Assembly (NCBI GenBank): GCA_030446555.1
Contig: JAUJNA010000005.1
Location: 43,561-95,048 of the forward strand
Length of the DNA: 51,488 nucleotides
Origin: Chloroflexota bacterium
Lineage (GTDB): Bacteria; Chloroflexota; Limnocylindria; Limnocylindrales; CSP1-4
Reading direction: 5' to 3'
The translations under genes were made by a program, and so were the position numbers. This document shows, one piece after another, positions 1,452 to 19,301 of this stretch. The notes beneath the pieces were generated by a model. That model searched no databases, was not told the DNA's origin, and was given only the letters and a program-made list of their open reading frames with translations. How positions within the stretch are numbered: position 1 is the first letter of the stretch; each line of letters begins with the position of its first letter.

Positions 1452-2654
1452 ATGGCCCAGCCCACCCCGGGTCCGCGCATCCTGGCGCCGATCCTCCTCG
1501 AGCCGAACCGAGTGTCTCGCTTCTACCGCGGGGGCGCGCTGCTCGACGCGTTCCGAGCTGGCACGGACCCGGCCGAGGGCCGGGCGGATGGCGACGGCGA
1601 TCGGCCGGAGGACTGGCTGGCCTCGATCGTGCGTGCCTGGACACCGGTCGGCAAGCCCATCAGCGATGAGGGCCTGACCCGCGTCCGCGCCCGCGACGAC
1701 GAGGTGACGCTGCGCGAGCTGGTCCAGCGTCGCGACCCCGCGACGATCGGCGGTGCTGGTCTGGTTCGCGCGGCCGGCCCCACGACGGGCCTCCTGGTGA
1801 AGCTGCTCGACGCCGCCCAGCGCCTGCCGGTCCACTGCCACCCCTCACGGCCGTTCGCGGAGCGCTTCCTGGGCAGTCGCTTCGGCAAGACCGAAGCGTG
1901 GCTGGTCATCGGCACGCGCGAGCTGCTCGGGGAGCCGCCGCCGTGCGTCTGGCTCGGCTTTCGTCGCGACGTGGCACGCGACGAGCTGCGCGAATGGATC
2001 GGGCGAGGGGACAGCGAGGCGCTCCTGGGCGCCCTCCACCAGCGGACCGTCGCACCAGGTGACGCCTGGTTCGTGCCGGGGGGCACACCGCATGCCATCG
2101 GGGCCGGCGTCTTCGTCGTCGAGCTCCAGGAGCCGACCGACTTCTCGATCGTCGCCGAGACGGCGGGACTGCCCATCGAGCCGCGGGACGCGCACCTCGG
2201 GCAGGGCTGGGACGTGATGGTCGACTGCTTCGATCGCGGAGGCCTCGACGACACCGAACTCCAGGCACTGCACCATACGCCCGAGCCCCTGGCGTCCCCG
2301 GGACCCGTCCGAAGGGAGCGACTGCTCGGGCCGGCCGCCGAGCCCTTCTTCCGAGCGGAGCGCCTCACGCTGACGGCGGGAGACGCGCCGCTGCCATGGG
2401 CCGACACGTTCGTGGTCGGGATCGTGACGGGCGGGAGTGGCCGGGTCGCCGCGCCGGGAGGGTCCATCGACGTCCACGCGGGAAGCACCTTCGCCGTGCC
2501 CGCCGCCATCTCGCGCGAGACGTCCCTGCAGGCGGACGAGCGCCTGGAGGTCCTGTGCTGCCTGCCGCCGGACGGTGACGCGCTCGCCCGCACCGGCTGG
2601 CGCGCATCCCAGCGCGGCGCGGGGTGGGCAGGCACGGGGACGGCAAGCGCGTGA
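1452..2654 (+). CDS. manA: mannose-6-phosphate isomerase, class I type
   Basis: The 400-residue protein has the zinc-site signatures of type I phosphomannose isomerases: H128-C-H130 in LPVHCHPS, E148 in GKTEAW, and H214 in GGTPHAIG within the cupin core. These enzymes interconvert mannose-6-phosphate and fructose-6-phosphate in the cytoplasm. The C-terminal 100 residues form the second cupin-like domain. The stop codon overlaps the GTG start of the next gene as GTGA, so the alpha-glucosidase is probably translationally coupled to it. This pairing suggests uptake and use of mannose- or glucose-containing oligosaccharides. The family is clear, but the true sugar phosphate substrate is inferred. 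Confidence 0.85.
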   Translation: MAQPTPGPRILAPILLEPNRVSRFYRGGALLDAFRAGTDPAEGRADGDGDRPEDWLASIVRAWTPVGKPISDEGLTRVRARDDEVTLRELVQRRDPATIGGAGLVRAAGPTTGLLVKLLDAAQRLPVHCHPSRPFAERFLGSRFGKTEAWLVIGTRELLGEPPPCVWLGFRRDVARDELREWIGRGDSEALLGALHQRTVAPGDAWFVPGGTPHAIGAGVFVVELQEPTDFSIVAETAGLPIEPRDAHLGQGWDVMVDCFDRGGLDDTELQALHHTPEPLASPGPVRRERLLGPAAEPFFRAERLTLTAGDAPLPWADTFVVGIVTGGSGRVAAPGGSIDVHAGSTFAVPAAISRETSLQADERLEVLCCLPPDGDALARTGWRASQRGAGWAGTGTASA

Positions 2655-4246
2655 CGTGGTGGCAGCCGGGCGTCCTGTACCAGATCTACCCGCGCTCCTT
2701 CGCCGATTCGGACGGCGATGGGATCGGCGACCTGGACGGGATCACGGCGCACCTGGACCACCTGCGCGGTGCGCCCGGGTCACTGGGCGTCGATGCCATC
2801 TGGATCTCGCCGTTCTTCCCGTCCCCCGGCGCCGACTACGGCTACGACGTCTCCGACTACACCGGCGTGGATCCGGTCTACGGTGATCTGGCTGGGTTCG
2901 ACCGGCTCCTGGCGGCCGCTCACGAGCGCGGCCTGTGCGTGCTGCTCGACCTCATCCCCGGGCACACGTCGGTCGAGCATCCCTGGTTCAGGGCCGCCCG
3001 TTCGTCTCGCTCGGATCCCCACCGCAGCCTCTACATCTGGGCCGATCCGGCGCCCGACGGCGGGCCGCCCAACGGCTGGACGTCGTGCTTCGGGGGTCCG
3101 GCATGGGAGTGGGACGCGCCCACCGGCCAGTACTACCTGCACTCGTTCTATCCGGAACAGCCCGATCTGGACTGGCGCGATCCCGGCGTCCATGAGCGGA
3201 TCGGCCAGGTGGTCCGCTTTTGGCTCGAGCGGGGCGTCGACGGGTTCCGGGTCGATGCCATCGATCGCTCCATCAAGGACCCCCTCCTCCGCGAGAACCC
3301 CCCGGCTGCGCCCGGTGAACGGCGCTTCGACTTCTTCCGCGGCCAGCACCACCTCTGGAACAAGGACCGACCGGAGGTGCTCGACGTCGTCCGCTCCATC
3401 CGCCGCTCGGCCGAAGCAGCACGGCCGGGTAGCCTGCTGCTGGGCGAGAGCTACATCCCCGTCGAGCGGTTGGCCCGCTACCTGGGTGATGCGCCGGGAG
3501 ACGCGTTCGACCTGGTCTTCGACTTCCCGTTCCTCGCCTCGCCTTGGGAGGCCGGGGCGCTGCGTCACGCCGTAGAGGAGGCGGAGGCCGCGTTCCCGGC
3601 CTTCGGGTGGCCGTGTCGGGCGCTCTCCAACCACGACAACCCGCGCCACGCGACCCGGTTCGGGAGGAGGTCACTGCGCGCGGCCGCGATGCTCTCCCTG
3701 ACCCTGCGTGGCACGCCGGTCCTCTACATGGGCGAGGAGATCGGCATGGCCGATGTGGTCCCGTCCAGCGGCGTGGTGCTCGACCGGGCCGGCCGCGACG
3801 CGGCGCGGACGCCGATGCAGTGGCGCGATGCGCCCGCCGGCGGCTTCACCACGGGGCGACCTTGGCTGCCCGTGGGTGACGCGAGCCAAGTCAACGTGGA
3901 GGACCAGGCGAGCGACCCTGGTTCGCTGCTCGCGCTCTACCGGCAGCTGATCGCCGACCGGGCGGCCAGCCCCGCGCTACGGGCGGGCAGTTACCGTGGC
4001 CTGGAGACGGCCGCAGACAGTGGCGTCTTCGCCTATCTGCGTCAGAGCGCCGACGAGCGGCTGCTGGTCGCCATCTCCACTTCGGGAACCGCCGGGTCAC
4101 ACGACCTGTACGCGGCCGGGCGAGGCCGCCTGCCGGCCAAGGGACGCCTCCGGCGCTCCACGGAGCCCGACCGCGCGGGGGGCCAGGCGCTCGACCTCAG
4201 GCGGATGGAGCTCGCTGGCGACGAGGGCGTCATCGTCCAGCTCTGA
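2651..4246 (+). CDS. GH13 alpha-glucosidase / oligo-1,6-glucosidase-like
   Basis: The 531-residue protein is a full-length GH13 retaining glucosidase opening with VLYQIYPRSFADSDGDGIGD. With the GTG start at 2651, the nucleophile is Asp202 (GFRVDAID), the acid/base Glu266 (LLLGESY) and the third acid Asp329 (LSNHDN). In conserved region I the usual Asn of DxxxNHTS is Gly (DLIPGHTS), a small oddity. There is no signal peptide, so it should act in the cytoplasm on imported alpha-linked di- or oligosaccharides. GTG 2651 is preferred over an in-frame start at 2624 because it gives a GTGA overlap with manA and begins just before the conserved WWQPGVLYQ. Confidence 0.88.
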   Translation: MTWWQPGVLYQIYPRSFADSDGDGIGDLDGITAHLDHLRGAPGSLGVDAIWISPFFPSPGADYGYDVSDYTGVDPVYGDLAGFDRLLAAAHERGLCVLLDLIPGHTSVEHPWFRAARSSRSDPHRSLYIWADPAPDGGPPNGWTSCFGGPAWEWDAPTGQYYLHSFYPEQPDLDWRDPGVHERIGQVVRFWLERGVDGFRVDAIDRSIKDPLLRENPPAAPGERRFDFFRGQHHLWNKDRPEVLDVVRSIRRSAEAARPGSLLLGESYIPVERLARYLGDAPGDAFDLVFDFPFLASPWEAGALRHAVEEAEAAFPAFGWPCRALSNHDNPRHATRFGRRSLRAAAMLSLTLRGTPVLYMGEEIGMADVVPSSGVVLDRAGRDAARTPMQWRDAPAGGFTTGRPWLPVGDASQVNVEDQASDPGSLLALYRQLIADRAASPALRAGSYRGLETAADSGVFAYLRQSADERLLVAISTSGTAGSHDLYAAGRGRLPAKGRLRRSTEPDRAGGQALDLRRMELAGDEGVIVQL

Positions 4247-4277: not shown

Positions 4278-5342
4278 TCAGGCGACGTCCAGCGCGCGGC
4301 AGATGGCCTCCGTGACCTCCTGCGTGGATGCGGAGCCGCCGATGTCGCGCGTCCTGGGGCCTTCTCGCGCCACGGTCTCGAGGGCACGCATCACGAGCCC
4401 AGCCGCCTCGTGCTCGCCCAGGTGCTCCAGCATCATCTGCCCCGACCAGATCGCACCCATCGGGTTGGCCACGCCCTGGCCGGCGATGTCGGGCGCCGAC
4501 CCGTGGACCGGCTCGAACATGGACGGCCGACGCCGCTCGGGATCCAGGTTCGCCGACGCCGCGACCCCCATCGAACCCTGGATGGCGGCCCCCAGGTCGG
4601 TCAGGATATCGGCGTAGAGGTTGCTCGCAAGGACCACGTCGAGCGACGCCGGATGGCTCACGAAGCGGGCCGCGAGCGCGTCGACGAGGTAGCGCGTCAC
4701 CTCCACGTCCGGGTAGTCCCGGCCGACGTCGGCCACCACCTCATCCCACAGCACCGCCGTGTACTGGAGGGCGTTGGACTTGGTCGCCGAGGCCAGCCCA
4801 CCGCGTCGCTCCCGTGCTCGCTCGAAGGCGTAGCGTGCCACCCGCTCGACACCATGCCGGGTGTAGACGCTCGTCTGGAGGGCCACGTCGTGGGGCGTCC
4901 CCACGTGCGAGCGACCACCCACGCCGGCGTACTCGCCTTCGCTGTTCTCGCGGATGCACAGCATGTCGACGGTCTGCGGGCTGCCGGCTCGCAGCGGCGA
5001 CTCGATGCCGTCCAGCACGCGGATCGGGCGCGCATTGACGTACAGGTCGAAGCCCTGGCGGATGGGCAGCAGCAGGCCCCACAGGCTGACATGGTCGGGC
5101 ACGCCGGGGAAGCCCACCGCTCCCAGGTAGATGGCGTCATGGTCGGCCAGGATGTCGAGTCCGTCGGCCGGCATCATGCGCCCGTGGCGCAGGTGGTACT
5201 CGCACGACCATGGCAGGTCGGTCGTCTCGAGCGTGAAGGCGCCCGTCACCTCCCCCGCGCGGCGCAACACGGCCATCCCCGCCGGCAGGACCTCCTTCCC
5301 CACCCCGTCCCCGGGGATGAGCGCGATCCGGTGGCGGTTCAC
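4278..5342 (-). CDS. tartrate/D-malate dehydrogenase-like (isocitrate/isopropylmalate dehydrogenase family)
   Basis: The 354-residue protein starts VNRHRIALIPGDGVG and ends with FEPVHGSAPDIAGQG and NPMGAIWSGQMMLEHLG. These C-terminal blocks are those of the tartrate dehydrogenase/D-malate dehydrogenase branch of the NAD-dependent, metal-dependent beta-decarboxylating dehydrogenases. The GTG start at 5342 overlaps the aldolase stop as GTGA, making it the third gene of a coupled kinase-aldolase-dehydrogenase operon. An in-frame extension further upstream to 5612 lies inside the aldolase gene and is rejected. The substrate in this operon is unknown; a 2-hydroxy acid derived from the aldolase product is possible. 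Confidence 0.82.
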   Translation of the reverse strand: MNRHRIALIPGDGVGKEVLPAGMAVLRRAGEVTGAFTLETTDLPWSCEYHLRHGRMMPADGLDILADHDAIYLGAVGFPGVPDHVSLWGLLLPIRQGFDLYVNARPIRVLDGIESPLRAGSPQTVDMLCIRENSEGEYAGVGGRSHVGTPHDVALQTSVYTRHGVERVARYAFERARERRGGLASATKSNALQYTAVLWDEVVADVGRDYPDVEVTRYLVDALAARFVSHPASLDVVLASNLYADILTDLGAAIQGSMGVAASANLDPERRRPSMFEPVHGSAPDIAGQGVANPMGAIWSGQMMLEHLGEHEAAGLVMRALETVAREGPRTRDIGGSASTQEVTEAICRALDVA

Positions 5343-6328
5343 GGCTGACCTGCGGTGACGCTGGCGACGGCGCCGCTCGCCGGACTCCCTGCAGCCTCCC
5401 ACCACGGCCGCGCGACCCGATCCACCGTGGCGGAGAGGCGCTGGAGGCGAGGCACGGAGATTTCCTCCAGCCTGCGCGTGAGGCCGTCGAGCGCGATGGC
5501 GTCCGACCAGATGGCCCGGCCGGCGAGGAAGCCGGATGCGCCACCGCGACAGGCCGCCTCCACGGCATCCCCGAATCGCTCGAGCGGCACGCCCGCTGAG
5601 AGCACGACCCACGGACCGGCGACCGCCTCGGTCAGGGCCTGGCTGCCACGCTCGATGGCCGATGGATCTGCCTGGCCCAGGAACGGCACTTCCGCCTTGT
5701 AGAGATCGGGCCGGAGGGTGGCCATCTCCCGCGCCGCTTCGACGGCCGCTGACTCCCGGTCCCAGGCGGTCGTGGTCCTGGCGGGCTCACGCACCACCAC
5801 TTCCACGACGGAGAGGAGGCCCGACGCGCGACAGATCCGGATGAACGACTCTGCCGTCCGCCGACGCCGCTCCCGCTCGTCGTCATCGCGCCAGACGATC
5901 AAGAGTTTCAGCGCCGCCGCACCCCAGCCCCGCGCGGCGTCCGGATCCACCTGGTCGTCGAGGTCCGTGTCCGTCACCGGGCCACCAGGCGCCTGGACCA
6001 GCGCGTCGGCCGCGACGATCAAGCCACAGCCGCCATGGAGGGCTCCACAGGTGAGGATCGGCCGCAACCCGAAGGTCGTGTCGACCAGGATGGCCGATGC
6101 GTGCGGCGAGAGCGCGCGGGCGGCGGCGACCTTGAAGTCGCGCAGGGTGCCGTCCCCGACGTGCGTCCCGGTCTGCTCGGCGTAGATGGTGCGCAGCGAT
6201 TCGCGCTGGTCCGTGGCGACCATCGCGAACGTACCCGATGGTCGCGCCAGCGCCGAGAGGTCGCCCGGCCGGCCGGCGCGGGGATGGGCCGCCCGTTCGG
6301 CCGGGGCATCGTCCTGGGCCCCGTTCAT
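5339..6328 (-). CDS. class I aldolase of the LacD/YihT (sulfofructose-phosphate / tagatose-bisphosphate aldolase) family
   Basis: The 329-residue protein contains FAMVATDQRESLR near residue 35, DFKVAAARALSPHASAILVD at 64-83 and the Schiff-base lysine segment DLYKAEVPF (Lys211). Near the end are VVLSAGV and GASGFLAGRAIW (Arg271). Compared from memory with E. coli YihT the similarity runs along the whole chain, including ALKLLIVWR and the C-terminal GFLAGRA block. YihT cleaves 6-deoxy-6-sulfofructose-1-phosphate; relatives cleave tagatose-1,6-bisphosphate. It overlaps the kinase stop by 4 bases (ATGA) and the dehydrogenase start by 4 bases. The pairing with a YihV-like kinase makes a phosphorylated ketose the likely substrate; whether it is a sulfonated sugar is open. 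Confidence 0.75.
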   Translation of the reverse strand: MNGAQDDAPAERAAHPRAGRPGDLSALARPSGTFAMVATDQRESLRTIYAEQTGTHVGDGTLRDFKVAAARALSPHASAILVDTTFGLRPILTCGALHGGCGLIVAADALVQAPGGPVTDTDLDDQVDPDAARGWGAAALKLLIVWRDDDERERRRRTAESFIRICRASGLLSVVEVVVREPARTTTAWDRESAAVEAAREMATLRPDLYKAEVPFLGQADPSAIERGSQALTEAVAGPWVVLSAGVPLERFGDAVEAACRGGASGFLAGRAIWSDAIALDGLTRRLEEISVPRLQRLSATVDRVARPWWEAAGSPASGAVASVTAGQP

Positions 6329-7251
6329 GTCCCCACCACTCCGCCGCTCGCCCAGGCGGCGTCGAGCGCCTCATAGGTCGGGATCGCGGAGCGCCCGTCC
6401 AGGGCTCCGCACGCGAGCGCTGCCGCGACGTTCGCCCGAGCCGTCGCCTCTCCCAGTGGCCGGCCGTCCAGCATCCCGGCCAGCATCGCCCCGTGGAACA
6501 CGTCGCCCGCTCCGAGTGTGCTCCGTACCCGCGCCATGGCTCCCGGTACCGAGAACGCTGCCCTGCCCCGCTCGAGACCACGCGCGCCGTCGCGCCCGAG
6601 CGTGGCGACCACAGCGTCACAGCCCTCGTCCACGGCAGCGCGCAGTGCCTCGTCCAGCGAACGCGCGGGGTCGCGCGCGCAGAGCATGGCGGCCGTGGGC
6701 GAGTAGAGGTCCACCCCCCGCAGCCCGAGATTTCCGATGGGGTTGCCGCCGTCGACGGAGAGGCAGGGGCGCGGCTCGCCGGAGGGCATGCCTTCGAGCT
6801 GGGCGCGGACCGGTGCATATCCGTGGTGGTCGACGTGGATCCACCTTGCCGCCGCGCATCGCTCAGCCGCCCGGCCGCTGAGCTGCGGTGGCCCTGCCGT
6901 TCCCGGGTAGGCGCTGATCGAGCGCGTGCCCGCGCCTTCGTCGACCAGGATGAGGCTCTCGGGGGACCGTGCGCCGGGGACGACGAGAAGCCCATCGATG
7001 TCCACGCCCTCCCCCGACAGCGAACGGATGATCCGGTCGCCGACGGCGTCGTCCCCCACCGCACCGACGAACGCCACCCGGTGACCGAGCCTCGCGAGTG
7101 CCACGGCCGCTGTCGCCGCGGGCCCGCCTCCGGCCCGCTCCAGCGCCACGGCTTCCACCCGTCCGTCGGCCGGCGGGTAACCCCGCACCAGACAGATGGA
7201 GTCCCACGTCGCGAGTCCCACGCACACGACATCCATGCCGAGGGCAGTCAT
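6325..7251 (-). CDS. PfkB-family sugar kinase, YihV-like
   Basis: The 308-residue protein has the PfkB/ribokinase signatures: VCVGLATWDS at the start, GGGPAATAAVALARLG (substrate/lid side) and the C-terminal TLGAGDVFHGAMLAG with its catalytic Asp and anion hole. From memory it matches E. coli YihV (6-deoxy-6-sulfofructose kinase) in both signature blocks and in the end segment ALACGALDGRSAIP. The lysine that YihV has in its substrate lid appears as Arg (DGRVEAV). The start could be ATG 7251 or ATG 7236. It is the first gene of the kinase-aldolase-dehydrogenase operon and is divergent from the MBL-fold gene. It phosphorylates a ketose or a related sugar; the exact one is not determined. Confidence 0.78.
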   Translation of the reverse strand: MTALGMDVVCVGLATWDSICLVRGYPPADGRVEAVALERAGGGPAATAAVALARLGHRVAFVGAVGDDAVGDRIIRSLSGEGVDIDGLLVVPGARSPESLILVDEGAGTRSISAYPGTAGPPQLSGRAAERCAAARWIHVDHHGYAPVRAQLEGMPSGEPRPCLSVDGGNPIGNLGLRGVDLYSPTAAMLCARDPARSLDEALRAAVDEGCDAVVATLGRDGARGLERGRAAFSVPGAMARVRSTLGAGDVFHGAMLAGMLDGRPLGEATARANVAAALACGALDGRSAIPTYEALDAAWASGGVVGT

Positions 7252-7339
7252 CGGAGTGGCCGTTCGGAGAAGCGATATACCGGCGGCACTTCTCTCGGCA
7301 TCGATGCCATTATCGGGCCCCAGGGAGGACACACGGAAG

Positions 7340-9259
7340 TTGCATCTTTACCCGCCTCGGGACGGTCGATATGTTCGAGCGGTGGAGCCACTCTCGAACG
7401 ATCTCTTTCGCTTTCGGGATACCTGCAACGTCTACCTCGTGCGCGACGGGAACGAGGGCATCCTGATCGATCTGGGCGCCGGCGACATCCTCGATCACCT
7501 CTCCGAGGCGGGCGTGGAGCGGATCACCGACGTGCTCATGACGCACCATCACCGGGACCAGGCACAGGGTCTGCCGCGCGCGGTGGAGGCGGGTATCCGG
7601 ATCTGGGTGCCACACAGCGAGCAGGAGCTCTTCGACCGGGTGGACCATCACTGGCAGGCCCGGCAACTGTCGAACGACTACAACAACCGCCAGGACCGCT
7701 TCTCGCTCCTGGAGCCGGTGCCCATCACCGGGACGCTCCAGGAATACGTGCCCGTCACGTTCGGGGGCCGATCGCTGACCGTCGTGCCGACCCCTGGTCA
7801 CACGGTGGGATCCGTCTCGGTCCTCGGCGACATCGACGGCCGACGCGTCTGCTTCACCGGCGACCTGATCTGCGCGCCCGGCAAGGTGTGGTCGCTGGCG
7901 GCGACGCAGTGGAGCTACAACGGCTCGGAGGGCATCAGCGCCACCATCCTCTCGGGCCGGGACCTTGTGAGGAGGAAACCGGACGTCCTCCTTCCCTCGC
8001 ACGGCGAGCCGATGGACGACCCAGCGCGCGCCTTCCGGCTCCTCGAGAAGCGCCTGCTCGATCTGCTCGAGCTCCGGAACGAAGACCCTGGCCTGGAGGA
8101 TCACCTCGCCAACCCGTTCGTGCCCATCACGCGCCACTTCCTGCACAACCGCACCGCACACGCCTACTCCTACATCCTCCTCTCGAAGAGCGGCAAGGCC
8201 CTTGCCATGGACTACGGGTACGACGCCAATCCGGGACTGGCCGCCGGGACGGATCGCGCGGCGCGCCGTCCCTGGCTGTACAACGTGCCTCGCCTCAAGG
8301 AGCAGTTCGGGGTGACCTCGATCGACGTGGCCATCCCCACGCACTACCACGACGATCACCTTGCATCGTTCAACCTGCTGCGCCAGGTGGAGGGCACGCG
8401 CATCTGGGCGGGCGAGAACATGGTCGATGTCCTGGAACGCCCGACCCATTACGACCTCCCCTGCCTCTGGTACGACCCCATCCCGGTGGATCGCTCGTTG
8501 CCCCTGGGGCAGCCCTTCGCATGGGAGGAGTACGAGCTGACCCTCCATCCGCTTCCCGGCCACACGCTCTATGCGGTGGCCGTGGAGGTGCGGGTGGATG
8601 GCAAGCGGATCCTGGCCCTGGGCGACCAGCTGGTGGATCTGGCCTGGCTCTTCTACCTCTACGACAAGGCGGTACCCATCGGTGAGTCGGCGTTGGGTCC
8701 GCTCCCGCCGCCGACCAGCCAGAACTACGTGTACCGCAACCGGTTCCGCATCGGTGACTATCGGGAGACGGCCGAGCTCTACCAGAGGGTCAAGCCGGAC
8801 ATCATGGTCTACGGTCATTGGGCGCCGGGAACCGTCGACCGGTCGTACCTCGACCGACTCAAGGCTCGAGGATCCCGGCTGGAGCGGCTCCATCGCGACC
8901 TGCTGCCACTCGACGATGTGGACTTCGGGGCCGAGGGGGTCGGCGCCTGGATCCGCCCCTACCGCTCGGAGATCCGGTCGGGAGAGGAGCTCGTCCTCGC
9001 GGTGGAGGTCCTCGATCCGTTCTCCCGAGCGGCCGAGGCACAGGTCACCTTGGCGGTGCCGCCGGGCTGGAGAGTCCGCCCGGTGGCTGGCGACGGCGAG
9101 GGTCGGGTGGCGCTCCAGGCGGGACAGACGGGGACCGTTGAGTTCTGTGTGACGCCGCCGCCGGACACGCGGGTCCGGCGGGCTCGCGTGGCGGCGGACA
9201 TGACCGTGGACGGCCGCCGATTCGGCCAGCAGGCGGAGGCGCTCGTCACCGTCGTCTGA
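7340..9259 (+). CDS. two-domain metallo-beta-lactamase-fold hydrolase with C-terminal beta-sandwich
   Basis: The protein carries two MBL-fold units. The first (about residues 20-250) has a degenerate metal motif H69-H-H71-R-D73-Q74 in which the last His is Gln, followed by PGHT and FTGD and an S-H-G loop. The second (about 260-530) has the intact THYHDDH motif (335, 337, 339, 340), then PGHT, LALGD and a late His in VYGHW. The last 100 residues look like an NEW3/Ig-type beta-sandwich. No signal peptide is evident. The TTG at 7340 has a GGGAGG 11 bases upstream and is preferred; an ATG at 7304 would add 12 residues but lacks an RBS. It is divergent from the sugar kinase operon. Substrate unknown. 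Confidence 0.75.
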   Translation: MHLYPPRDGRYVRAVEPLSNDLFRFRDTCNVYLVRDGNEGILIDLGAGDILDHLSEAGVERITDVLMTHHHRDQAQGLPRAVEAGIRIWVPHSEQELFDRVDHHWQARQLSNDYNNRQDRFSLLEPVPITGTLQEYVPVTFGGRSLTVVPTPGHTVGSVSVLGDIDGRRVCFTGDLICAPGKVWSLAATQWSYNGSEGISATILSGRDLVRRKPDVLLPSHGEPMDDPARAFRLLEKRLLDLLELRNEDPGLEDHLANPFVPITRHFLHNRTAHAYSYILLSKSGKALAMDYGYDANPGLAAGTDRAARRPWLYNVPRLKEQFGVTSIDVAIPTHYHDDHLASFNLLRQVEGTRIWAGENMVDVLERPTHYDLPCLWYDPIPVDRSLPLGQPFAWEEYELTLHPLPGHTLYAVAVEVRVDGKRILALGDQLVDLAWLFYLYDKAVPIGESALGPLPPPTSQNYVYRNRFRIGDYRETAELYQRVKPDIMVYGHWAPGTVDRSYLDRLKARGSRLERLHRDLLPLDDVDFGAEGVGAWIRPYRSEIRSGEELVLAVEVLDPFSRAAEAQVTLAVPPGWRVRPVAGDGEGRVALQAGQTGTVEFCVTPPPDTRVRRARVAADMTVDGRRFGQQAEALVTVV

Positions 9260-16504: not shown

Positions 16505-16541
16505 GAGCGGGCGGATCGTCCAGTCGGACGCTCGCCCGCTC
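16505..16541. terminator. nested hairpin between convergent genes (bidirectional terminator candidate)
   Basis: GAGCGGGCG at 16505-16513 pairs with CGCCCGCTC at 16533-16541. Inside it CGTCC (16517-16521) pairs with GGACG (16526-16530). The hairpin fills the 37-base gap between the dehydrogenase stop and the paaD stop and reaches into the paaD stop codon. There is no T-run, so if it terminates, the mechanism is not a classical intrinsic one on the plus strand. Confidence 0.45.
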
Positions 16542-17079
16542 AGACCTGTTTGAACTGCTCGAAGGGCTGGCGGCAGGCGGTGCAGTGGTAGATGGCCCGG
16601 CACAGGGTCGGGCCGAACCCGTTCTCGAGCGTCGTGGCACGCGACCCGCAGTAGGGACACTCGCCGACGGGTAGGAGCGGCAGCAGCCGATCGGGCTGCG
16701 TGTCGCTTCCGGCCGGGTCCAAGGCCGATAGCTCGGGCCGTTCAGGCGGGGGCGGCCCGAATCCGCTCTCGCGGAGCCGCCGCCTTCCCTCCGGCGTGAT
16801 GCGCTCGCTTGTCCAGGGCTCGGCGAAGGTCACCGTAGCCTCCACGTCGGGCGCGAACCCCTGGAGGCGCTCTTCCACCGCGGAGCGCATCAGATCCACG
16901 GCGGGACAGCCCACGAACGTGGGCAGCAGCTCCACGCGCACGCGGCCAGGAGCCACCTCCACGCGGCGAACGACCCCTAGGTCCACGACCGAGATGACCG
17001 GGATCTCCGGGTCGTGCACATCCGCCAGCGCGGCCCACACCGCCTGCTCGAGCGGCACGGCCGAGATCGGAGCGCTCAC
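16540..17079 (-). CDS. paaD: phenylacetyl-CoA epoxidase subunit PaaD
   Basis: The 179-residue protein has an N-terminal MIP18/DUF59 domain (ADVHDPEIPVISVVDLGVVR) and a C-terminal zinc-ribbon with four Cys (CPYCGS ... YHCTAC). PaaD is needed for maturation of the di-iron epoxidase that converts phenylacetyl-CoA to its ring-1,2-epoxide. The GTG start at 17079 overlaps the paaC stop as GTGA; a longer in-frame version beginning at 17127 lies inside paaC and is rejected. It is the last gene of the paaABCD operon. Length is normal for the family. Confidence 0.9.
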   Translation of the reverse strand: MSAPISAVPLEQAVWAALADVHDPEIPVISVVDLGVVRRVEVAPGRVRVELLPTFVGCPAVDLMRSAVEERLQGFAPDVEATVTFAEPWTSERITPEGRRRLRESGFGPPPPERPELSALDPAGSDTQPDRLLPLLPVGECPYCGSRATTLENGFGPTLCRAIYHCTACRQPFEQFKQV

Positions 17080-17933
17080 CAGGTCGCGCCCTCCTCCGAT
17101 CGGTGCACCATCGTGAACTCGTTCCACAGCCAGCGAAAGCTCTCCGCGGGCACGGCACGGTCCCGGCCATCGACGGTCGAAGGCGGCGAGCCGGTCACCC
17201 GGCCCCCGGCGAGCGCGATGCCGAGCCCCGCGAGCGTGGCCGTCGCCTGAGCGAGATGCCGCTCGGCAAGCTCAGCCATCGGCTGGCCGAGGATCCCAGC
17301 CTCGAGGAGCGCATGCTCGCCCGCGAGCGGGGCGAAGGGGCTCAAGGCGTCGGGCCAGAGCTTCGCCAGCGCATCTTCCAGCCTGCGGCGAGGCTCCTCC
17401 CCGCCCCCGGCGAGACGCCGCAGCCAGACGTCCATGTGCATCAGGTGGTAAGTCTCCTCCCGCCGGATCTTGGCCACGACCTCGGCCAGCGGCGCGAACG
17501 ATGAGCGGCGCAAGGCCCCCAGGCGGACGGCATCGGCCGTGTCGTAGAGCCAGCGACGAGCGACCGAGAAGGCCCAGTCCGTTCGCGGATGGTCGAGCAG
17601 CCGGCAGTGCCGGTAGCCGTCGACCGGTCGTCCGAAGGCGATGGCGTCGGCGTCACCCCCGGTCAGCTGCGCCAGCATCTCGTACAGCACCCGGGCGTGA
17701 CCCAACTCGTCCTGCGCCAAGGAGCTGAAGGCGACATCCTCCTCCAGCATCGGTGCGATGCCGGTCCATTCCGAATCCCAGAAACCCAGCACGAACTCGT
17801 CGTCAGCCATGGTGAGCAGCAGCTCGGCCAGAGCCTCGCGCACCGGTGCGTCGAGTCCCGCGGTGTCGAAGGCCGGCACGTCCGGCACGGCCGATGCGCG
17901 TGTGACCCGCCGTTCGGCGGGGGTGGCGGTCAT
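17076..17933 (-). CDS. paaC: phenylacetyl-CoA epoxidase structural subunit PaaC
   Basis: The 285-residue helical protein has the ferritin-like PaaC blocks LLTMADDEFVLGFWDSEWTG, AQDELGHARVLYEML and RREETYHLMHMDVWLRRL. PaaC pairs with PaaA in the (AC)2 core of the multicomponent epoxidase, where it lacks a working di-iron site. The gene overlaps paaB upstream and paaD downstream by four bases each, so all three are coupled. The complex acts in the cytoplasm during aerobic phenylacetate degradation. Confidence 0.92.
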   Translation of the reverse strand: MTATPAERRVTRASAVPDVPAFDTAGLDAPVREALAELLLTMADDEFVLGFWDSEWTGIAPMLEEDVAFSSLAQDELGHARVLYEMLAQLTGGDADAIAFGRPVDGYRHCRLLDHPRTDWAFSVARRWLYDTADAVRLGALRRSSFAPLAEVVAKIRREETYHLMHMDVWLRRLAGGGEEPRRRLEDALAKLWPDALSPFAPLAGEHALLEAGILGQPMAELAERHLAQATATLAGLGIALAGGRVTGSPPSTVDGRDRAVPAESFRWLWNEFTMVHRSEEGATW

Positions 17934-18301
17934 CCCGACCCCTCCCTCGAGACGCGCCGGCGCGCCGCATCCAGCTTGTCGCGCATCACGTAGCCACCGG
18001 GCTTCTTGAACGACCGGTCGAGCGGGGGCTGGAGCAGGTCGGGATCGGAGAGGTCACGGATCGCGCCGCGTGGCACGACCCACAGCCGCACGCTCTCCTG
18101 GCGACGTGAGTACAGCTCCCGGGCGTAGTGCGTGGCGAGCTCGGCGTCGGGCGCGCGGATGTTACCGGCGTGGCGCATCGGGTCGCCGTCCTTCTCCTGC
18201 CGGAACACCTCCCAGACGTCCGCCTGGGCGCCACCGCCCTGACGGCCGGCATCGTCACGGCGGCCTTCCTCCTTCACCGAAGGATCGGCGGTCGAGCCCA
18301 T
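17930..18301 (-). CDS. paaB: phenylacetyl-CoA epoxidase subunit PaaB
   Basis: The 123-residue protein has the PaaB core DVWEVFRQEKDGDPMRHAGNI, then DAELATHYARELYSRRQES and LWVVPRGAI. The first 28 residues are a polar extension not typical of the short PaaB proteins; ATG or GTG starts further in are possible. PaaB bridges PaaAC units in the epoxidase complex. It follows paaA after four bases and overlaps paaC by four, within the paaABCD operon. Confidence 0.9.
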   Translation of the reverse strand: MGSTADPSVKEEGRRDDAGRQGGGAQADVWEVFRQEKDGDPMRHAGNIRAPDAELATHYARELYSRRQESVRLWVVPRGAIRDLSDPDLLQPPLDRSFKKPGGYVMRDKLDAARRRVSREGSG

Positions 18302-18305
18302 CGAC

Positions 18306-19301
18306 TCAGGCCGCGGCAGCGACCGGTGCGGCGAGCACGGTCGCCCGTACCCACGCCGACTCGGCGTGGTGCAGGCGCCGGAACTCGAGCCGCTCCTGTG
18401 ACATCGGGCCGTGGCCGGTGACCACCGTCCGCAGCTCGTTCCAGTCGGGCTCGCTGTACTCCCAGCGGCCAGCCCCCTCGTCGTAGTGGAGGACAGGGTC
18501 GGGGATCTCGAGACCCAGCTCGCGGATGCGCGGCACGTAGATCGACAGGAACTCCTGGCGGAGCTCCTCGCTGGTCTTGGCCTTGATGCGCCAGAAGAGG
18601 TCGCGATCCTTCGAGCGATCGGAACGGGGACCGTGCATCTGCATCAGCGGGCCCCACCAGCGGTCCAGGGCTTCCTGGACCATCCCTCGCTGCGTGTGGG
18701 TGCCGCTCATCATCGTCACGATCACGTCGCGCCCGTGCATGATGTGGACCGACTCCTCCCAACAGATCTTCTTCATCGTCCGGCTGTAGGGCCCGTACGA
18801 CGACTCACGGAGCGCCTGCTGGGCCACGATGGCGGCCGCGTCCACGAGCCAGGCGATGATGCCCACGTCGCCCCACGAGCGCGTGGGGTAGTGGAAGACG
18901 TTGTGGAACTTCGTCTTGCCATCGAGGAGATCCTGGAGCATCTGCTCGCGCGGCTTGCCCAGGTCTTCCGCGACGCGGTAAAGCAGCTGCGCGTGACCCA
19001 CCTCGTCCTGCACCTTGGCCGTGAGCGCCAGCTTCCGCTTGAGGGTCGGGGCGCGCATGATCCACTCGCGCTCGGGCAGCACGCCCATCAGCTCGCTGTT
19101 GGCGTGCATCTCCACGAAGCGTAGGACGCCGTTGCGGTACTCGTCAGGCATCCAGTCGCGCGCTTCCACCTTGCGACCGGCATGCACGTGCTCCACGAAG
19201 GCGTCGTAGCGCTCCTCGTGCGACAGGTCCGGATCGTGGTACGGCAGCCGGGATCGCTCCTCGGGCGAGAGCACCGGGTCGAGGGCGAGCGGGTCGGTCA
19301 T
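18306..19301 (-). CDS. paaA: phenylacetyl-CoA epoxidase catalytic subunit PaaA
   Basis: The 331-residue protein is the catalytic subunit. The di-iron ligand helices are visible as KVQDEVGHAQLLYR and KICWEESVHIMHGRDV. YHDPDLSHEERYDAFVEHV and RRLHHAESAW frame the domain. It inserts one oxygen atom of O2 into the ring of phenylacetyl-CoA using electrons from a PaaE-type reductase. No paaE, paaG, paaZ or paaK is in the window, so the rest of the pathway must lie elsewhere. The stop of the TetR regulator gene overlaps its start, so paaR and paaABCD are one transcription unit. Confidence 0.94.
   Translation of the reverse strand: MTDPLALDPVLSPEERSRLPYHDPDLSHEERYDAFVEHVHAGRKVEARDWMPDEYRNGVLRFVEMHANSELMGVLPEREWIMRAPTLKRKLALTAKVQDEVGHAQLLYRVAEDLGKPREQMLQDLLDGKTKFHNVFHYPTRSWGDVGIIAWLVDAAAIVAQQALRESSYGPYSRTMKKICWEESVHIMHGRDVIVTMMSGTHTQRGMVQEALDRWWGPLMQMHGPRSDRSKDRDLFWRIKAKTSEELRQEFLSIYVPRIRELGLEIPDPVLHYDEGAGRWEYSEPDWNELRTVVTGHGPMSQERLEFRRLHHAESAWVRATVLAAPVAAAA

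Follow-up and report, generated by a model that had tools for sequence, protein, structure and literature searches.

A Chloroflexota operon related to sulfoglycolysis that couples a YihV/YihT-like kinase-aldolase pair to a tartrate dehydrogenase-like enzyme and probably handles a different sugar

Which sugar is broken down by a bacterial operon whose kinase and aldolase resemble YihV and YihT of the Escherichia coli sulfoquinovose pathway, and whose third gene encodes a tartrate dehydrogenase-like enzyme? The question is raised by a 51,488-nucleotide stretch of DNA (hereafter the window) from an uncultured Chloroflexota bacterium (GenBank assembly GCA_030446555.1), located on contig C7 in a 2.1 Mb genome that is 78% complete. 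YihT and YihV homologues are easily taken as a sign of sulfoquinovose breakdown. Our main finding is that the operon is related to the pathway for this plant sulfo-sugar but probably handles a different sugar. With a confidence that approaches an even chance, we favor the reading that it splits a probably acidic ketose in a manner similar to the Embden-Meyerhof-Parnas (EMP) pathway, and that the tartrate dehydrogenase-family enzyme (TDH) oxidizes the hydroxyacid derived from the aldehyde half.

Three minus-strand genes form the operon, in the order kinase, aldolase and TDH, with 4-nucleotide overlaps at 6325-6328 and 5339-5342. They encode a PfkB/ribokinase-family sugar kinase (6325-7251, 308 amino acids), sister to sulfofructose kinases and proposed to be a ketose 1-kinase; a class I (Schiff-base) ketose-1-phosphate aldolase of the YihT type (5339-6328, 329 amino acids); and a beta-decarboxylating 2-hydroxyacid dehydrogenase of the tartrate dehydrogenase family (4278-5342, 354 amino acids). 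An earlier, sequence-only reading of the window had placed a coupled kinase, aldolase and tartrate dehydrogenase-like gene at 4278-7251, and our analysis agrees.

The aldolase (Pfam DeoC/LacD, 95 bits) has its best PDB matches in YihT, 7ag7 and 1to3 (228 bits, residues 25-305 aligned), LacD scoring 44 bits. It keeps the invariant Schiff-base lysine K211, E176 and the DQR motif, and YihT (7ag7) ranks first in a Foldseek search with its AlphaFold model (mean pLDDT 88.4; TM-score by target 0.93, root mean square deviation 1.5 A). Membership of the tagatose 1,6-bisphosphate aldolases (LacD, TIGR01232) was considered and rejected, as the score is 40 bits for a cut-off of 432. The kinase contains the GAGD catalytic motif (PfkB, PF00294, 130 bits); its best PDB matches are YihV (7ag6) and the uncharacterized 2rbc, at 94 bits each, and its model (mean pLDDT 92.3) places ribokinase and YihV at the top (1rkd and 7agk, TM 0.82-0.84). 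The sequence-only reading held that both proteins resemble their E. coli counterparts along their length. This is true of the aldolase, which is 40% identical to YihT over its full length; the kinase is 34% identical to YihV, in an alignment made of two separate stretches. As for TDH, it scores 530 bits over its full length with the TIGR02089 tartrate dehydrogenase model, above the curated cut-off of 470, and its best PDB match is the tartrate dehydrogenase/decarboxylase 3flk (341 bits). It keeps the conserved residues of this tartrate/D-malate dehydrogenase family throughout, and differs from it in lying in an operon with a predicted ketose-splitting pair. The earlier claim that the third gene is a tartrate dehydrogenase-like enzyme instead of a sulfolactaldehyde reductase was thus correct, and it is strengthened by the recurrence of this combination in Cereibacter and Variovorax, described below.

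Is the operon then a variant of known sulfoglycolysis? A scan of bacterial genomes for relatives returned 80 loci. The relatives found were Chloroflexota metagenome-assembled genomes (locus L024 matches genome G167, and L029 matches G008), and the closest loci by identity outside Chloroflexota were actinobacterial clusters of the sulfoglycolytic EMP (sulfo-EMP) type. These contain a kinase, an aldolase, an SftI/SqvD-like isomerase (NF048012, 289 bits, below its cut-off of 700), a GH31 glycosidase, an aldehyde dehydrogenase and sometimes TauE, and the window kinase and aldolase are each about 50% identical to theirs. In the aldolase tree, 28 sulfo-EMP-type rows, which include Variovorax and Rhodospirillales rows without a recognized isomerase, form a clade at 98/96 support, and the window falls outside it. 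In the kinase tree, the window belongs to a separate Chloroflexota group with modest support (82/78). Sister groups are comparable in both trees, indicating that kinase and aldolase were inherited as a pair, and this pair appears to be a sister lineage of the sulfo-EMP enzymes, outside their clade. Compared with sulfo-EMP of E. coli and Arthrobacter, the window thus shares a PfkB kinase, a class I DeoC/LacD-type aldolase with the YihT fold and the expected product dihydroxyacetone phosphate (DHAP), but its pair is a sister clade, YihS/SftI and YihQ are missing, and the operon has TDH attached in place of YihU.

Some of the loci returned deserve mention in their own right. Seven actinobacterial loci (L020-L023, L025, L035 and L089) hold apparent hybrid sulfo-EMP clusters with a YihT-like aldolase, an SftI/SqvD-like isomerase, GH31 and, in most, a YihV-like kinase; in L023, SuyA/SuyB-like genes lie about 5 kb upstream. 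In an actinobacterial metagenome-assembled genome, a SuyA-like SAF-domain protein was spotted by eye near a related aldolase and kinase (L026:3980-4282). Enterobacterial loci L031, L028, L032, L037, L067 and L094 carry yihT/U/V-like genes, with neither yihS nor yihQ in the part fetched, and correspond to a short cassette already reported (PMC12608037).

The residues that contact the substrate lead in the same direction as the trees. The sulfonate ligands of YihV are reportedly K27, N109 and R138 (Sharma et al. 2021), and a check of the E. coli protein shows K, N and R at positions 27, 109 and 138. These positions are mostly not kept in the window kinase, where K27 is replaced by Arg, N109 by Ala, and R138 is non-conserved. 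N109 and R138 are also absent from the actinobacterial kinases (the Arthrobacter AK04 enzyme among them), which have in common an Arg at the neighboring position 110, where the window kinase has Tyr. Since the Arthrobacter AK04 isolate grows on sulfoquinovose with such a kinase, the residue test is not decisive; the pattern seems to speak against a sulfonate without settling the matter. As for the aldolase, conserved positions by themselves fail to separate the groups with respect to sulfonate contacts. The sequence-only reading had named two observations that together would tell against a sulfosugar, absence of the sulfonate-binding residues and clear activity on an ordinary ketose phosphate: the first of these largely holds for the kinase.

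The genes that should surround a sulfoquinovose pathway were searched in seven Chloroflexota genomes that carry the kinase and/or the aldolase and are 59-92% complete (in the loci read, G028 has the kinase only, G174 and G060 the aldolase only). The YihS family (PF07221) was found in none of the seven; an SftI-type isomerase was absent from six, the seventh, G008, having one weak and distant match (28% identity, E 1e-9); and GH31 gave two weak partial matches only, in G028 and G060. The window genome, at its 78% completeness, has no YihS- or SftI/SqvD-type isomerase and no GH31, and the earlier claim that neither a YihS-type isomerase nor a sulfoquinovosidase lies beside the operon is borne out. 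Single absences prove little given incompleteness, and Arthrobacter is likewise without a recognized GH31; the joint absence is more telling. Taken together, the trees, the lost kinase residues, the lack of a known isomerase and the weakness of GH31 make canonical sulfoglycolysis unlikely. There is moreover a precedent for YihT/YihV-type genes outside sulfoquinovose use: in E. coli Nissle, sulfoquinovose failed to induce the short yihTUVW cassette (PMC12608037). Like the window, this cassette has a YihT/YihV-type pair without isomerase and sulfoquinovosidase; unlike it, the cassette retains YihU, the reductase, and is closely related to the true yih genes. It follows that annotating this sister lineage, in which the isomerase is absent and most contact residues of the kinase are lost, as sulfoquinovose breakdown in Chloroflexota may be wrong.

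A divergent sulfosugar route could still be imagined. A non-orthologous isomerase, for example one similar to phosphomannose isomerase (PMI-like), would provide a sulfo-ketose, the pair would convert it to DHAP and (S)-sulfolactaldehyde, an unlinked dehydrogenase would form (S)-sulfolactate, and TDH would produce sulfopyruvate. By our own stereochemical reasoning, (S)-sulfolactate from a D-sugar has the spatial arrangement of D-malate, a known substrate of the TDH family. Sulfolactaldehyde has the S configuration (PMC12421959). The nearest relatives outside Chloroflexota are sulfo-EMP clusters, some with TauE or SuyA/B-like genes, the sulfofructose-phosphate aldolase is the best fold match, and Arthrobacter uses sulfoquinovose in spite of a kinase devoid of N109 and R138. 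Yet both window enzymes lie outside the sulfo-EMP clade, the kinase lacks not only these two residues but also the actinobacterial Arg, the isomerase and GH31 searches gave the results above, and neither an exporter nor a sulfo-lyase was recognized in the fetched loci. We therefore consider this route quite improbable. The sequence-only reading had left the choice between a new sulfosugar route and one that serves another ketose or a sugar acid, and the second half of this proposal fits better with the sister clade, the residues and the absent isomerase.

If not a sulfosugar, is the association with TDH meaningful? The same three enzyme families, adjacent and co-directional, occur on a plasmid of Cereibacter sphaeroides in an uncharacterized operon (L203:3230-13825, NZ_CP051471.1; also L217, plasmid pB of strain 2.4.1) that encodes a DeoR regulator, a solute-binding protein, two permeases, an ATPase, a zinc-dependent alcohol dehydrogenase (Zn-ADH), a succinate-semialdehyde-type aldehyde dehydrogenase, TDH, the aldolase and the kinase. 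In strain 2.4.1, locus tags DQL45_RS21435 to RS21455 cover operon genes outside the transporter. The window TDH is 57-58% identical to the TDH of this operon. The differences are that gene order is reversed, that the Cereibacter kinase belongs to the YihV branch (34% identity to the window kinase), and that the plasmid operon has its own ABC (ATP-binding cassette) transporter, Zn-ADH and aldehyde dehydrogenase. Variovorax sp. E3 has an aldolase, an ABC transporter, a kinase, a short-chain dehydrogenase/reductase (SDR) instead of Zn-ADH, an aldehyde dehydrogenase and TDH, with 60% (kinase), 66% (aldolase) and 73% (aldehyde dehydrogenase) identity to Cereibacter; its TDH frame (L056:18398-19497) looks broken by an assembly frameshift. 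In G101, a member of the window's own family, Zn-ADH, a transaldolase, TDH and an aldehyde dehydrogenase similar to succinate-semialdehyde dehydrogenase (SSADH) stand in a row (L185:6587-11553), TDH being 62% and the aldehyde dehydrogenase 53% identical to those of Cereibacter. The transaldolase sits there in place of kinase and aldolase, which recalls the relation of sulfo-EMP to the transaldolase form of sulfoglycolysis (sulfo-TAL).

The kinases and aldolases of the proteobacterial sets belong to branches different from those of the window, and TDH probably became associated with such a pair on more than one occasion; this is an argument for functional coupling. That the genes are adjacent by pure chance seemed unlikely, given that they overlap and that the set recurs in Proteobacteria. 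A literature search found no paper on the C. sphaeroides operon or on this gene combination. The sequences themselves show the family assignments, the operon structure, the homology and the conserved linkage.

What would such an operon do? Family membership argues strongly for a ketose-splitting module. The PfkB kinase would phosphorylate the terminal CH2OH beside the keto group of a ketose, and the YihT-type Schiff-base aldolase would cleave the ketose-1-phosphate into DHAP and an aldehyde. Downstream, judging from context, a 2-hydroxyacid made from this aldehyde would be oxidized by TDH with NAD, and possibly decarboxylated. Again judging from context, the ketose itself is most likely acidic, carboxylated rather than sulfonated, such as a 5-keto-aldonate or a ketouronate; from a C6 acid ketose, the aldehyde released would be tartronate semialdehyde.

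Several observations bear on this acidity. In SSADH, two arginines hold the aldehyde by its acidic end, and the same has been proposed for sulfolactaldehyde dehydrogenase (PMC10599462). The aldehyde dehydrogenases of the Cereibacter, Variovorax and G101 sets keep both acid-binding arginines, and the aldehyde is therefore probably acidic. In G008 and G171, which belong to the window's clade, an Asp/Glu racemase, a DUF1537 acid-sugar kinase and a protein resembling hydroxypyruvate/2-oxotetronate isomerase (TIGR03234, 216 bits, below the cut-off of 353) occur with the pair (L010:6824-11687 and L198:1-8723, respectively). The Variovorax SDR has its best match, below cut-off, in the keto-deoxygluconate 5-dehydrogenase model, and the Cereibacter solute-binding protein does not match the solute-binding protein of sulfo-EMP clusters. 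Together, the arginine pair, the acid-sugar neighbors, the SDR match and the unlike solute-binding protein favor a carboxylated ketose. If real, the kinase-aldolase-TDH pathway would be a novel route for the use of an acidic sugar, and with a full operon, its own transporter and a DeoR regulator, C. sphaeroides 2.4.1, a laboratory strain that is tractable, makes the substrate idea testable.

Other observations weigh against an acidic ketose whose fragment is handed to TDH. TDH orthologues (59-75% identity) occur mostly in other contexts across the class, so that TDH may be a general D-malate/tartrate enzyme, and none of the other fetched Chloroflexota loci with the pair contains it; for this latter reason, we rejected TDH as a hallmark of the whole Chloroflexota clade. 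No aldehyde dehydrogenase adjoins the window operon; five are present in the genome, none linked to it, and the one most similar to the Cereibacter enzyme reaches 40% identity. A C6 acid would pose the difficulty that the usual fate of tartronate semialdehyde is reduction to glycerate. Finally, the neighborhood of the operon, with a PMI-like isomerase and a glycosidase, points to an aldose as the precursor and not to an aldonate, and a neutral or a sulfonated aldose becomes possible. The first of these would lead to neutral ketose catabolism, in which glycosidase and isomerase supply the ketose, the pair yields DHAP and glyceraldehyde, and TDH, acting on D-malate or tartrate, is in the operon for unrelated reasons. 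This explanation accords with the PMI-like gene and the GH13/GH1 glycosidases found near related aldolases, with the many other contexts of TDH, and with the lost anion-binding residues of the kinase, which fit an uncharged C6. It does not account for the translational overlap of TDH with the aldolase, for its joining the pair in Proteobacteria too, for the K27 and R138 kept by the proteobacterial triad kinases together with the acid-binding Arg pair of their partner aldehyde dehydrogenases, or for the acid-sugar enzymes beside the pair in G008 and G171, and we regard it as unlikely.

The acidic-ketose reading can also be pushed further. Kinase, aldolase (or transaldolase), aldehyde dehydrogenase and TDH would then form an unrecognized pathway of Chloroflexota and Proteobacteria, with TDH completing the oxidation of an acidic C3 (or C4) fragment derived from the ketose; in the boldest form, the fragment would be sulfolactate and TDH a new sulfolactate dehydrogenase forming sulfopyruvate and thereby connecting it with sulfosugar cleavage, in bacteria that have none of the known sulfoquinovose isomerases. 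We hold this extension to be highly improbable.

A parallel for the logic of the acidic-ketose reading is found in the inositol pathway. Its enzymes IolC and IolJ convert 5-keto-2-deoxygluconate to DHAP and malonate semialdehyde: there also a kinase acts on a 5-keto acid and an aldolase yields DHAP and a semialdehyde acid. Could the operon belong to an inositol or deoxy-inositol-type pathway, with an IolC-like kinase and a YihT-type aldolase that replaces IolJ to give DHAP and malonate semialdehyde? The IolC model TIGR04382 indeed ties with ribokinase as the best NCBIfam match of the kinase, and on Rhodococcus plasmid pLRE138 (L208:9961-16035) a related aldolase, 39% identical to that of the window, adjoins an iolC-annotated gene, two Gfo/Idh/MocA genes and a sugar isomerase. 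But the kinase score of 94 bits is far under the IolC cut-off of 300, and we rejected its membership of this family (5-dehydro-2-deoxygluconokinase); the window aldolase is of another family than IolJ, no inositol dehydrogenase was recognized in the loci fetched from the window's clade, and TDH is unnecessary for malonate semialdehyde. Such a pathway has, in our view, hardly any chance of being the right one.

As for the surroundings of the operon, a type I PMI-like protein (1452-2654, plus strand; PDB 1qwr ManA, 43 bits) is a candidate aldose-ketose isomerase. Of the ten other genomes that carry a related kinase and/or aldolase, seven have homologues, which in four of them (G008, G015, G124 and G174) lie at most 5 kb from it; the three genomes that were fetched because of TDH have none. 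Overlapping the PMI-like gene, a GH13 alpha-glucosidase-like enzyme (2624-4246, plus strand; Pfam Alpha-amylase 361 bits, PDB 6aav 396 bits) has homologues of 50-56% identity in L143 and L011, and these adjoin related aldolases in G174 and G060. The window enzyme reads DLIPGHTS where its relatives in G174 and G060 read DLVPNHTS, an Asn to Gly change before the conserved His. It was considered as a sulfoquinovosidase, adjacency being the sole support.

Divergent from the kinase, a protein with two metallo-beta-lactamase domains (7196-9259, plus strand; Pfam Lactamase_B, 87 bits) probably has its true start near 7330. In G167 and G171 it is conserved next to the kinase and aldolase; the homologues, in L144 and L198, are 52-53% identical and run divergently from the pair. 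It also shows a weak C-terminal NPCBM-associated match. Farther away, the window carries phenylacetic-acid catabolism genes at 16540-19301, encoding two PaaA_PaaC-family proteins.

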